This document shows, piece after piece, positions 30,595 to 56,340 of a stretch of DNA of 64,000 nucleotides (position 1 is the first letter of the stretch; each line of letters opens with the position of its first letter). The stretch spans positions 372,001 to 436,000 of the forward strand of contig NZ_JARKMX010000004.1 in assembly GCF_029360705.1 (NCBI RefSeq). Direction: 5' to 3'. Under the pieces are notes generated by a model. That model saw only the letters and a list, made by a program, of their open reading frames with translations. It had not been told where the DNA came from and made no database searches. Source of the stretch: Paraflavitalea pollutisoli (lineage in GTDB: Bacteria; Bacteroidota; Bacteroidia; Chitinophagales; Chitinophagaceae). A program made the translations under genes and the position numbers.

Positions 30595-30632
30595 AAAAAC
30601 GGGAAGCACGATTCATCATGCTTCCCGTTTTT
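30595..30632. terminator. Bidirectional hairpin terminator
   Basis: A 13-bp stem (AAAAACGGGAAGC / GCTTCCCGTTTTT) around a 12-base loop, with T-tracts on both strands. It can serve the SnoaL gene on the plus strand. Confidence 0.8.
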
Positions 30633-30656
30633 ACTATACAGCTAGGGCCGTAAAAA

Positions 30657-30711
30657 ACATATAGAGCACATATAGAGCAGATACAGAAGACATATAGAGC
30701 ACATATAGAGC
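30657..30711. repeat. 11-bp tandem repeat, unit ACATATAGAGC (5 units)
   Basis: Units start at 30657, 30668, 30679, 30690 and 30701. Four are exact copies; the middle one is degenerate (AGATACAGAAG). The 11-bp period equals that of the unrelated arrays at 41.8-42.5 kb. Confidence 0.9.
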
Positions 30712-30814
30712 CGTCCGCTGATGGATGGTTATAGGATTGTCCGGTGTCTGCCAATGGGTCGTTACTATACCCGCCGTACCCGACCCGTACCGTATTCGTA
30801 GAGGGAGGGTATCA

Positions 30815-40282: not shown

Positions 40283-40339
40283 ATCAACCTGTTTGGCACG
40301 TGCAAATCAACTTGTCGGGCACGTGCAAGTCAACCTGTA
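40283..40339. repeat. 23-bp tandem repeat (2.5 units) containing CACGTG
   Basis: Units at 40283-40305 and 40306-40328 differ at 2-3 bases and end GGCACGTGCAA; a partial third follows. It lies between two convergent genes (GH43 and DUF763). CACGTG is itself palindromic. Confidence 0.75.
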
Positions 40340-41559: not shown

Positions 41560-41745
41560 GCCGATAAAGGTACGGAAAATGGGGCAGGGGGCTGGTGTGC
41601 CCGTGGGCTGCATGCAGAGGGACCAACAACCCGGGAGGCATCAAACAAATAACAAAAAGCCTGATTTGTCTACGGTTTTTGTTGCCTGATAGCACGTATG
41701 GCAGACTATTCCTTTCGGTATCTTTAGGGCTCAAATTTCCCTTTC

Positions 41746-41937
41746 ATGTGGCAAAAGTATATGTGTTGTATACTTTTATTGATCGTTCAGCTAACTGGCT
41801 CGTCCTGCAATAACAAGTTCAGCCATGGTCACAGTTATAGCCATATAAACCAGTACATTGCCTACGTATCGCCTACAGCTTGCCTACGCATTGCCTGGCT
41901 GCTCAATGAAAGCAGGCAATGTTTTCCCAGTGTTTAG
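41746..41937 (+). CDS. Possible truncated lipoprotein frame running into repeats
   Basis: A 63-codon frame beginning MWQKYMCCILLLIVQLTGSS-C, an acceptable lipoprotein signal with lipobox Cys21. After about 35 residues it enters the 11-bp inverted repeat array and soon stops. It may be the 5' stub of a lipoprotein gene invaded by repeats, or a repeat-derived accidental frame. No family recognised. Confidence 0.3.
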   Translation: MWQKYMCCILLLIVQLTGSSCNNKFSHGHSYSHINQYIAYVSPTACLRIAWLLNESRQCFPSV

Positions 41938-41964
41938 GCAATGTGTAGGCATATAGCAGGCAAT
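41858..41964. repeat. Inverted pair of 11-bp-phased arrays (ATTGCCT... / ...AGGCAAT)
   Basis: GCCT cores start at 41860, 41871, 41882 and 41893 (period 11). The reverse-complement core AGGC starts at 41914, 41936, 41947 and 41958 (spacings 22, 11, 11). Only a core of 7-8 bases is kept in each unit; the other 3-4 vary. The two arms could fold into a long imperfect hairpin. Confidence 0.85.
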
Positions 41965-42169
41965 CAGCGTAAATCCAGGTAACGTACTGAAGCGCAAATG
42001 CTTACCCGTAAATATACGAAATTAATTGAATGAAAGATGTTTGAAGTCCGAAAAGATTGCCAGCGTCGCCAAAATGCTCCGTTTTACCGCTATCGGTTAG
42101 TTAATGCCTGATTCAGTTATAAATAGTTTGCGCCTATAGCCGTGGACGGGCAGCGAGGCGCGTGATAGC

Positions 42170-42277
42170 GCTGGCAATGCCCTGGCAGTCCACTGCCGGT
42201 TTTCTGTCACTGCACAGGTGAAAACTGGTATTTCAGAGCAGTGCCAGAACTGTGACAGAGCATTGCCAGAGCAGGGG
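42170..42277. repeat. Inverted pair of 11-bp-phased arrays (CAGAGCA cores)
   Basis: Forward CAGA cores start at 42234, 42245, 42256 and 42267. On the other strand CAG cores lie at 42206, 42195, 42184 and 42173. Both arms keep an exact 11-bp step, with a spacer of about 28 bp between arms. Consensus is close to TGCCAGAGCAN. The unit sequence is unrelated to the array at 41858. Confidence 0.8.
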
Positions 42278-42362
42278 CATTGTGATCGGCATGACTAAAA
42301 TGCCCGTAAGCGGGCGTAAAATGACAAGTAAACCGTCGGCTACAGCTCTTTCACTGCCTTCC

Positions 42363-42428
42363 GACTGGTATCCCACTGGTAGGAGACTGGTATAAGACTG
42401 GTATGGAACTGGTATAACACTGGTACTG
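42363..42428. repeat. 11-bp tandem repeat with core ACTGGTAT (6 units)
   Basis: ACTGGT occurs at 42364, 42375, 42386, 42397, 42408 and 42419, exactly every 11 bp. The three flanking bases of each unit vary freely. No inverted partner array is seen nearby. Confidence 0.9.
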
Positions 42429-42456
42429 GCGCATTAGCATATACATACCATATCCG

Positions 42457-42507
42457 TAGGAGTGTACAAGCATCTCCCTGCGGGAAGGATAGGAGTGTGA
42501 TAGCATC
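42457..42507. repeat. Direct repeat TAGGAGTGTnnnAGCATC, 33-bp step
   Basis: Two copies start at 42457 and 42490; the 33-bp spacing is three times 11. It adjoins the ACTGGTAT array and may belong to the same repeat system. Confidence 0.65.
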
Positions 42508-42598
42508 CGGCGGCGAGCCAAACAGGATTTTAAGTCTGCCGCGATAGCTGCCGAATGCGGCCTGGACTTAAGGCAGGCTTAGCCAGGATCGGCGCGTG

Positions 42599-55021: not shown

Positions 55022-56305
55022 ATGCAAGCATCGAATGAGCGTATTTCCGTAGACAGGCTGAAGGCCATCATTGGCGGATCCATCGGTAATCTTGTGGAAT
55101 GGTATGACTGGTACGCCTATGCCGCCTTTGCCCTGTATTTTTCCGGATCTTTCTTCCCCACCGGCAATGCCACGGCGCAGTTGTTGAATACGGCCGGGGT
55201 CTTCGCGCTCGGCTTTCTGATGCGGCCCATCGGTGGTTGGTTGTTTGGCTGGCTGGCCGACAAACGTGGCCGCAAGATCTCCATGACCTGGTCGGTGTTG
55301 CTGATGTCGCTGGGATCGCTGATGATCGCCTGTACACCCACTTTTCACGCGATTGGTATCCTGGCGCCGGTGATCCTGTTGGTGGCGCGATTGCTGCAAG
55401 GCCTTAGCGTGGGTGGCGAATACGGTGTGTCGGCCACCTACCTGAGCGAGATGGCTACCCGCAATCGCCGCGGCTTTTATTCCAGCTTTCAATACGTAAC
55501 GCTGATCGGCGGTCAGCTGATCGCCCTGGGTATACAACTCATACTGCAACGCCTCCTGACGACAGACCAACTACACGATTGGGGCTGGCGTATTCCTTTT
55601 GTGATCGGCGCCATCTTATCGGTGGTAGCACTCTACCTGCGCAGCAGTTTGCAGGAGACACCTTCTTTCCAGCAACAAGGTGCAAAGGCCGATGTGAAAA
55701 AAGGTTCGGTCAAAGAGTTGTTGAAGCATCCGAAAGCCATCCTGACGGTGGTGGGGCTAACGCTTGGCGGCACCCTGGCCTTTTATACCTATACCACCTA
55801 TATGCAAAAGTTCCTGGTGAATACGGTACACCTGAGCAAGGAACAAAGTACGATGCTGTCCTTTATCTCCCTATTGTTGTTTGCTGCCCTGCAACCCCTG
55901 TTTGGCAGCCTGAGTGACCGCATTGGCCGCCGCCCGTTGCTCATGGGCTTCGGGATATTGGGCGTAGGGTGTACGGTGCCGTTGCTGACGGCATTGAGCC
56001 ATACGACATCGCTGTTCACCGCCTTCCTGCTACTGATGGCGGCGTTGATCATCGTCAGCGGCTATACCAGCATCAATGCAGTGGTAAAAGCAGAGTTGTT
56101 TCCAGCCGAGGTGCGGGCGCTGGGCGTGGGTTTGCCCTATGCCCTTACGGTAGCCATCTTTGGTGGCAGCGCCGAATATGTGGCGTTGTGGCTGAAGAAT
56201 GGCGGTCATGAATCGTGGTTCTATTGGTACATCACGGTTTGTATCGGCATTTCGTTGCTGGTGTATGTGACGATGAAGGATACGAAGCATACTTCGAAGA
56301 TATAG
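55022..56305 (+). CDS. MHS-family MFS transporter (alpha-ketoglutarate/dicarboxylate permease-like)
   Basis: A 427-residue protein with twelve helices. The MHS signatures are GNLVEWYDWYAYAAFALYF and RPIGGWLFGWLADKRGRK, followed by LLQGLSVGGEYGVSATYLSE. The loop-8/9 repeat is GSLSDRIGRRPLL. The family imports carboxylates with protons; substrate (KgtP-, ProP- or ShiA-like) is undecided. Its stop codon forms part of an octamer repeat array. Confidence 0.94.
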   Translation: MQASNERISVDRLKAIIGGSIGNLVEWYDWYAYAAFALYFSGSFFPTGNATAQLLNTAGVFALGFLMRPIGGWLFGWLADKRGRKISMTWSVLLMSLGSLMIACTPTFHAIGILAPVILLVARLLQGLSVGGEYGVSATYLSEMATRNRRGFYSSFQYVTLIGGQLIALGIQLILQRLLTTDQLHDWGWRIPFVIGAILSVVALYLRSSLQETPSFQQQGAKADVKKGSVKELLKHPKAILTVVGLTLGGTLAFYTYTTYMQKFLVNTVHLSKEQSTMLSFISLLLFAALQPLFGSLSDRIGRRPLLMGFGILGVGCTVPLLTALSHTTSLFTAFLLLMAALIIVSGYTSINAVVKAELFPAEVRALGVGLPYALTVAIFGGSAEYVALWLKNGGHESWFYWYITVCIGISLLVYVTMKDTKHTSKI

Positions 56306-56340
56306 GCATCAAGGCACCGAGGCAACAAGGCAGCGAGGGA
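56304..56340 (+). repeat. AGGCANCN octamer tandem repeat (4 units)
   Basis: AGGCATCA, AGGCACCG, AGGCAACA, AGGCAGCG run in exact 8-bp register from 56304, starting inside the MHS stop codon. A degenerate AGGGA follows. Related to the array at 30514. Confidence 0.8.

Follow-up and report, generated by a model that had tools for sequence, protein, structure and literature searches.

Tandem repeats that hold to one size across differing sequences are a described feature of bacterial genomes, and it is beside this class that the arrays reported here are best placed. In the excerpted text of Subirana and Messeguer (PMC8161180), such repeats have a fixed size, differ in sequence and form several families per genome, as ours do, and the same authors also propose proteins that polymerise on DNA. 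Their repeats measure 20-21 nt (individual species, in many groups) or 52 nt (Firmicutes), in contrast with the 11-bp step seen here, and ours further differ in consisting mostly of four or five units, in often forming paired half-arrays and in recurring at orthologous sites. One repeat size likewise spans several unrelated sequences: lag 11 dominates, not 20-21 or 52 nt, and about a dozen unrelated unit families were told apart by eye in the consensus list. Since a class of constant size and variable sequence has already been published, we file the arrays as a variant of it. The original prediction, made from the DNA letters alone, that no described element has these properties was too strong, given these repeats, heptamer arrays (PMC4679880) and a MITE minisatellite (PMC4596501), all known here from parts of the respective articles. 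As far as the excerpts of the open-access literature extend, subscription papers lying outside its scope, no 11-bp arrays of such a kind are described.

The heptamer arrays of Beggiatoaceae, Cyanobacteria and Bacteroidetes, made of TAACTGA or other heptamers, are intergenic direct repeats like those found here and, again as here, are missing from shorter intergenic regions in close relatives; unlike ours, they have a period of 7, one named word and up to 43 copies (PMC4679880, in extract). The minisatellite is BrickBuilt of Porphyromonas gingivalis, a member of the same phylum, whose 19 copies are intergenic and dispersed like our modules. It carries a leader and a tail around its tandem units, where we see a leader at six copies of our module A plus a partial one and could establish no tail, and its single family with a 23-nt unit and 1 to 22.8 units contrasts with several families of 11-bp units, mostly four or five in number (PMC4596501, in extract). 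As for terminal inverted repeats of the BrickBuilt type, inverted arms are seen here in modules A and B. REP and BIME elements are also dispersed intergenic repeats with clusters of several kinds, but REPs are palindromes of 20-40 bp, in contrast with our longer 11-bp arrays, not all of which are palindromic (PMC6379681 and PMC3733652, in part). The arrays do not fit CRISPR, the units succeeding each other every 11 bp without unique spacers. The parC site of plasmid R1 reportedly comprises ten direct repeats. With its protein ParR, parC presents 11-bp direct repeats in two blocks, and both step and number are similar here, at least by the portions of PMC9426499 and PMC5016525 cited. The likeness is one of geometry: unlike parC, the present arrays exist in many chromosomal copies with different units.

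The window, that is, the whole 64,000-nucleotide stretch of Paraflavitalea pollutisoli DNA under analysis, contains a 1-kb intergenic gap (41560-42598) flanked by two minus-strand genes, DUF763 on one side and NIPSNAP on the other. Clusters with an exact 11-bp period had been claimed at 41858-42507, and they are real. Tandem Repeats Finder reported period 11 at 41856-41896, 41931-41951, 42234-42274 and 42363-42425, the last of these scoring at periods 22 and 33 as well, and a lag scan with a threshold of at least 21 matches in 33 gave five lag-11 stretches (41853-41900, 41916-41964, 42165-42211, 42227-42284 and 42348-42431) along with two lag-22 stretches, while the remaining lags between 7 and 23 yielded nothing. 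Among 1,000 first-order shuffles of the gap, a single one produced one or more lag-11 stretches. Two details of the earlier description had to be corrected: the 33-bp direct repeat taken as a separate array is the ACTGGTAT array (42363-42425) read at three units, and the GCCT/AGGC and CAGAGCA clusters, which are indeed 11-bp arrays, actually each form a pair of inverted arms. The resulting modules are listed in Table 1. Between the arms of module A lies a conserved, asymmetric centre, GCTCAATGA followed by TTTCCCAGTG. A further array elsewhere in the window begins ∼17 bp past a terminator-like hairpin with a T-run (30595-30632, by eye), and a unit similar to its own, CTACAGAGCAC, occurs at two loci of the congeneric genome G003. 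The window also holds a 63-aa ORF on the plus strand (41746-41937), maybe a truncated gene or a chance ORF, that starts like a lipoprotein and extends into module A; a 23-bp tandem repeat on the 3′ side of the DUF763 gene (40283-40338); and an 8/16-bp tandem repeat, AGGCAACA, at 56304-56338.

Table 1. Arrays of the window and the leader of module A (window positions)
Feature	Position	Strand	Sequence features
Module A	41853..41968	.	Left arm ATTGCCTACnn, right arm GTAGGCAATnn
Leader of module A	41972..42124	-	Conserved 5′ box, GCGGTATTAACTACC in several copies
Module B	42165..42284	.	Inverted arms CTGGCAnTGCn and GTGCCAGAGCA / GTGACAGAnCT
Module C	42348..42431	.	ACTGGTATnnn, six units
Further window array	30649..30714	.	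ACATATAGAGC x5

All three modules of the gap turned out to be members of dispersed families. Querying the genome of origin (G000) with 861 bp of the window stretch returned 22 places, the window included; module B, with the consensus GTGCCAGA / GTGACAGA, has matches at seven other places (our own count over several searches), and module C matches elsewhere in the genome too. Beside the A, B and C places, fifteen G000 stretches revealed further families, among them GTGCCGAGCT with GGTCCTCG, TTCGGGA, AGACCTTAT and AGCTAAACCCT. An 11-bp autocorrelation scan of intergenic DNA, the check proposed with the original prediction, found arrays in excess of shuffles in this genome: 90,830 intergenic bases contain 18 lag-11 arrays, and also 18 at lag 22, and shuffled intergenic DNA fails to give arrays at a similar rate, with 6 lag-11 arrays in total over 40 shuffles (0.15 each, at most 1 per shuffle). 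Along a contiguous 776 kb of contig C1, noncoding arrays numbered 15 at lag 11, 17 at lag 22 and 6 at lag 33, compared with between 0 and 4 at any one of the remaining lags (5 to 44). A further six arrays of C1 with lag 11 lie inside called reading frames, where repeats mostly have lags that are multiples of three. A 400-kb piece of contig C15 held only 3 lag-11 arrays, indicating that array density varies.

Beyond this genome, a search of 59 genomes (own included, at most eight candidates scored per genome) matched the window stretch in G000 itself, at eight or more places in G002 and at one in G003, and in none of the 54 genomes outside the genus. Arrays with other units are present in all four other members of the genus, G001 to G004, and the claim of a period that is kept and a unit that changes is borne out in the genome of origin and across the genus. 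Samples from four other genera, few in number and each made of the first 20 kb of five contigs (100 kb), contained no noncoding lag-11 array in G006 and G010, two in G019 and again none in G013, which has eight arrays of period 7 and eleven of period 8. Several of these period-7/8 arrays form inverted pairs ∼70 bp apart, e.g., L139 from 8290 and L141 from 3739; at L139:8290 a variant unit appears, by eye, in the same register in both arms. The 11-bp step may thus be a lineage trait. A pattern scan of 84,980 genomes, a set from which the genus itself is perhaps missing, gave five single matches in unrelated records that we take as chance, and Rfam returned no match. In G001, we also noted 11-bp duplications within a TTGTCGAAGGG / CTTCGACAAG repeat (L073:13507-13573 and L076:12699-12759), which resembles what we take to be a widespread REP-like sequence.

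The best dyad centres of the A and B clusters step by 5.5 bp, which puts both inverted arms in one 11-bp phase. Relative to the largest of 200 shuffles, a score of 10, dyad scores were higher for A (15 in the window, and 18), B (16), the CCTAGGG family (20), E (13 and 12) and C at L021 (15) and L019 (11), and within the shuffle range for C of the window (9), C of L011 (7) and D (8). Parsed by eye, D, C at L021, the CCTAGGG family and E in G003 appear to have about five plus four or five units. Twenty aligned copies of module A have a mean column identity of 74% and, ragged ends aside, an insertion of one base (L023) and a deletion of one base (L047). For the six copies with a leader, the array part showed 570 mismatches and 0 gap events at 1995 pairwise sites and the leaders 1309 mismatches and 41 gap events at 2690, counts that are not independent of each other and, for the leader, come from a partly uncertain alignment. 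Besides its conserved 5′ box, the leader itself has a TATATTTA/G box and then GTAAGC...CAATAGGTTAC. An nhmmer search of 2.19 Mb of DNA, some of it counted twice, placed it at full length at six sites, each adjoining module A, with one weak partial match (L020, E 0.022) that adjoins module A as well; the other A copies are without it. A TATATTT box precedes module A in seven copies, with no good second promoter box, as judged by eye, at the usual distance. The leader looks promoter-like, by eye only, and is possibly a promoter or a repeat end.

Unit numbers are bounded. Among 71 arrays, 44 have four units, 25 have five, two have six and none has more, with a detection floor of four units and counting that ends where the consensus changes; 22 of these arrays come from the window, C1 and C15, the remainder from loci picked for matches. 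Longer periodic stretches with a change of unit do occur, as at L046 (1060-1193) and in the two-part arrays of L009 and L021. An informative case is family F (consensus GTCTC[G/T]ATAAG), which is present in all five genus members and was read at 40 loci of these five species, 43 of 44 stretches passing the score cut. All five units are in frame in 31 of the 43 and two to four units in the other 12; an extra unit follows upstream in two and downstream in none. The 88 bp upstream of F are themselves 11-periodic (0.398 at lag 11 and 0.375 at lag 22, with 0.258 to 0.310 at lags 4-10), a periodicity that the 88 bp downstream do not share (0.274 at lag 11). A process that simply writes on in 11-bp steps, as had been suggested at the outset, does not fit these ends, and the dispersed copies, which suggest copying of whole modules, count against it too. 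Around the 40 F loci, ORF ends were 5′ in 42 cases, 3′ in 19 and unassigned in 19, a crude count to which we give no weight. At L228 (contig C91 of G001), two F arrays with different tags adjoin, five GTCTCG units being followed by GTCCGGATAAG units.

Between the F copies of one species, identity is slightly higher for units in matching positions than for units in differing ones (0.867 versus 0.847 in G000, 0.800 versus 0.775 in G001, 0.774 versus 0.761 in G002, 0.840 versus 0.830 in G003 and 0.822 versus 0.770 in G004), a small excess of 0.01 to 0.05 over the five species that weakly fits copying of whole F modules. Identity between F copies is 0.81 within and 0.80 between species (46 of 48 copies, those of G000 at L015 and L226 falling below the score cut), leaving species-wide concerted change of the family unsupported. 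Orthologous copies are no closer than others, with mean identities of 0.64 at L015 (four species) and 0.77 at a second locus matched by eye via its terminator, a pattern that mobile repeats would give too. L015 has family F in all five species in the frame GTC-nnn-ATAAG, and its middle triplet, read by eye, is mostly common within an array and different between most species: G000 has three units with TCT, G003 five with mostly TCG, G002 four with TCG and CCG, G001 five with CGG and G004 six with mostly GCT. Taken together, identities and triplets indicate that the consensus of F is held genus-wide while single arrays differ.

Array positions, too, recur between species. Orthologous sites of eight array loci, out of a set with at least eight more, had an 11-bp array in 14 of 31 comparisons with relatives, often with a different unit, compared with 5 of 114 comparison gaps of the same four genomes, defined as intergenic gaps of at least 100 bp in stretches not picked for arrays (the match-picked L075 and L079 being excluded). 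The corresponding Fisher P value of 1.5e-7 is an overstatement, since relatives share ancestry; counted by locus, 6 of the 8 have an array in at least one relative (P = 4e-4). All four relatives have one at L010, where G000 carries A and C, G003 CTACAGAGCAC, G004 CTACAGAGAAC, G002 GTTTACTTCAA, and G001 CATATCnnnCC plus TAAACCnATGC. The remaining loci gave arrays in four of four relatives (L015), two of four (L009 and L013), one of four (L021) and none of four (L012 and L014); for L009, L012 and L014, one flanking gene was aligned and the search covered 1.5 kb beside the aligned part. A terminator-like hairpin precedes the arrays of L013 in G000, G002 and G003, as judged by eye. The window locus itself, where absence from close relatives had been named as a point against the arrays, gave a divided answer, with an array in one of three relatives (G004 gave no DUF763 match): the neighbouring genes lie 65 bp apart in G002 and 50 bp apart in G003 with no array between them, and in G001 a 365-bp gap holds a different 11-bp array, TCTnTAnnnTC, with five units.

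The genes beside the arrays offered no common denominator. Ten genes flanking five array loci, nine of them with a Pfam match (DUF763, NIPSNAP, metallo-beta-lactamase fold, polysaccharide synthesis, Y-family polymerase, HipA_C, DPP IV, carbamoyl-phosphate synthase and M23 peptidase) and one without, have no shared theme, which argues against a single regulon and is compatible with chromosome-level roles or plain mobile repeats. Nor is there a clear orientation bias among array gaps of C1 (5 tandem, 2 convergent and 5 divergent of 12; 137, 40 and 65 of all 242 gaps) or of C15 (2, 0 and 1 of 3; 48, 16 and 28 of all 92).

Our best explanation, a tentative one that may well prove wrong, is that the arrays are intergenic modules acting as one-helical-turn platforms for cooperative DNA-binding proteins. 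Each module would comprise one or two half-arrays of some four to six 11-bp units, on which a cooperative protein would assemble, each helical turn taking up one dimer or domain; separate proteins of a common geometry would recognise the different unit families, binding would account for the fixed spacing, and the modules would have spread as non-autonomous repeats. By analogy, ribbon-helix-helix centromere-binding proteins and OmpR/PhoB-type regulators, the latter having a comparable one-turn site geometry, could serve as models. In excerpts of the respective articles, R1 ParR requires at least two 11-bp repeats (PMC9426499), PhoP of Mycobacterium tuberculosis binds directly repeated 7-bp motifs that stand 4 bp apart (PMC4832192), and omega/ParB sites consist of 7-10 contiguous heptads, the full effect requiring at least four (PMC9499535). 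The lag-11 excess, the bounded number of units, the sharp end of family F, the gap-free array part of six A copies, the lack of covariation between the spacers of A, the common frame of F at L015 and the recurrence at orthologous sites speak for such platforms; the lack of a strict unit number (three at L015 in G000 and six in G004, fewer than five in frame in 12 of 43 F stretches), the fact that dyad symmetry is not general, orthologous F copies no more alike than others, flanking genes of no common theme and the arrayless relatives at L012 and L014 speak against them. The early suggestion of binding sites stacked on one face of the DNA is the reading we favour, with the protein itself something we infer. 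The pattern is solid and the mechanism weak. A more far-reaching version, which we think unlikely, would make these arrays a genus-wide class of ∼110-bp platforms whose geometry (about five units per half at an 11-bp step) is conserved and whose positions are kept between species, with the unit or a homogenised tag such as the GTC-nnn-ATAAG triplet rewritten per locus and each tag recognised by a separate member of an expanded family of DNA-binding proteins.

Several of the same observations would also be expected of mobile or dispersed non-autonomous repeats of the REP/BIME or MITE type, such as BrickBuilt, that have no host function and whose 11-bp units serve their own transposase as recognition sites or reflect the founder's structure, an explanation that we find somewhat doubtful yet take seriously. 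Recognisable modules do lie in dispersed copies, several families cluster at one site, the window site is arrayless in G002 and G003, and the leader occurs only with module A. The Y1 family, however, offers no partner transposase, with two to three Y1 members in each genome of the genus versus none to nine in other relatives; no target-site duplication could be established, and independent mobile repeats would not be expected to give several unrelated families that share one step and are similar in unit number. Expansion of RAYTs as a driver finds no support, the Y1 transposases being without excess in the five genus members. Satellites born of slippage, in which tandem duplication prefers steps of 11 bp and functionless arrays appear and vanish, are a very unlikely source: none of the 71 arrays exceeds six units of one consensus, despite the longer unit-changing stretches such as that of L046, indels in the aligned A copies are as rare as described above, and the downstream end of F is sharp. 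This idea would explain why units are often homogenised within arrays, CGG in all five units of L015 in G001 and mostly GCT in G004 being examples, and why unit number varies from three to six at that locus, but simple slippage is rejected because unit numbers are bounded.

An 11-nt step would equally match one turn of an A-form RNA helix, and Rho-loading sites are spaced 11-13 nt apart; transcribed hairpins or Rho-loading sites nevertheless strike us as distinctly improbable. The inverted arms of A, B, E, the CCTAGGG family and C at L019 and L021 beat the shuffle maximum, the TATATTT box stands before seven A copies, and over all arm pairs of module A 74.1% of cells are paired versus 71.9% after shuffling (a level reached in 1 of 500 shuffles), a slight excess for which shared descent can account. 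Pairing of the A spacers with loop-side pairs, by comparison, is 62.1% versus 62.0% shuffled, without covariation; RNAalifold finds 12 pairs in module A, the covariation term being +0.14, nothing in Rfam matches, and a terminator-like hairpin stands ahead of several arrays (by eye, that of the further window array and those of L013 in the three genomes named). An RNA hairpin is not supported for the 20 copies of module A, the one module examined in this way, in view of the absence of compensatory changes in the spacers. We conclude that the array signal lies at the DNA level, with which transcription is still compatible. Wrapping or bending sites for a topological enzyme (gyrase-like) or a nucleoid protein that reads shape over sequence would suit the module span of ∼110 bp (by eye), and according to parts of PMC6379681 the Escherichia coli gyrase motif is periodic in both of its flanks (-63:-17 and 20:66) and BIME-2 elements are enriched in gyrase cleavage sites. 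Most unit bases are conserved within a family, beyond what shape reading needs, and we hold this possibility to be extremely remote.

If it is the spacing that is conserved and not the sequence, such an element escapes ordinary homology searches, in line with the empty Rfam search and a DNA query that retrieves its own families only. The published question of why some bacterial tandem repeats keep a constant size becomes testable here, since the genus provides natural comparisons in the form of sites that are orthologous yet differ in unit, and of one where five species share a family. If true, this would be a bacterial case of position and geometry persisting while the recognised sequence turns over.
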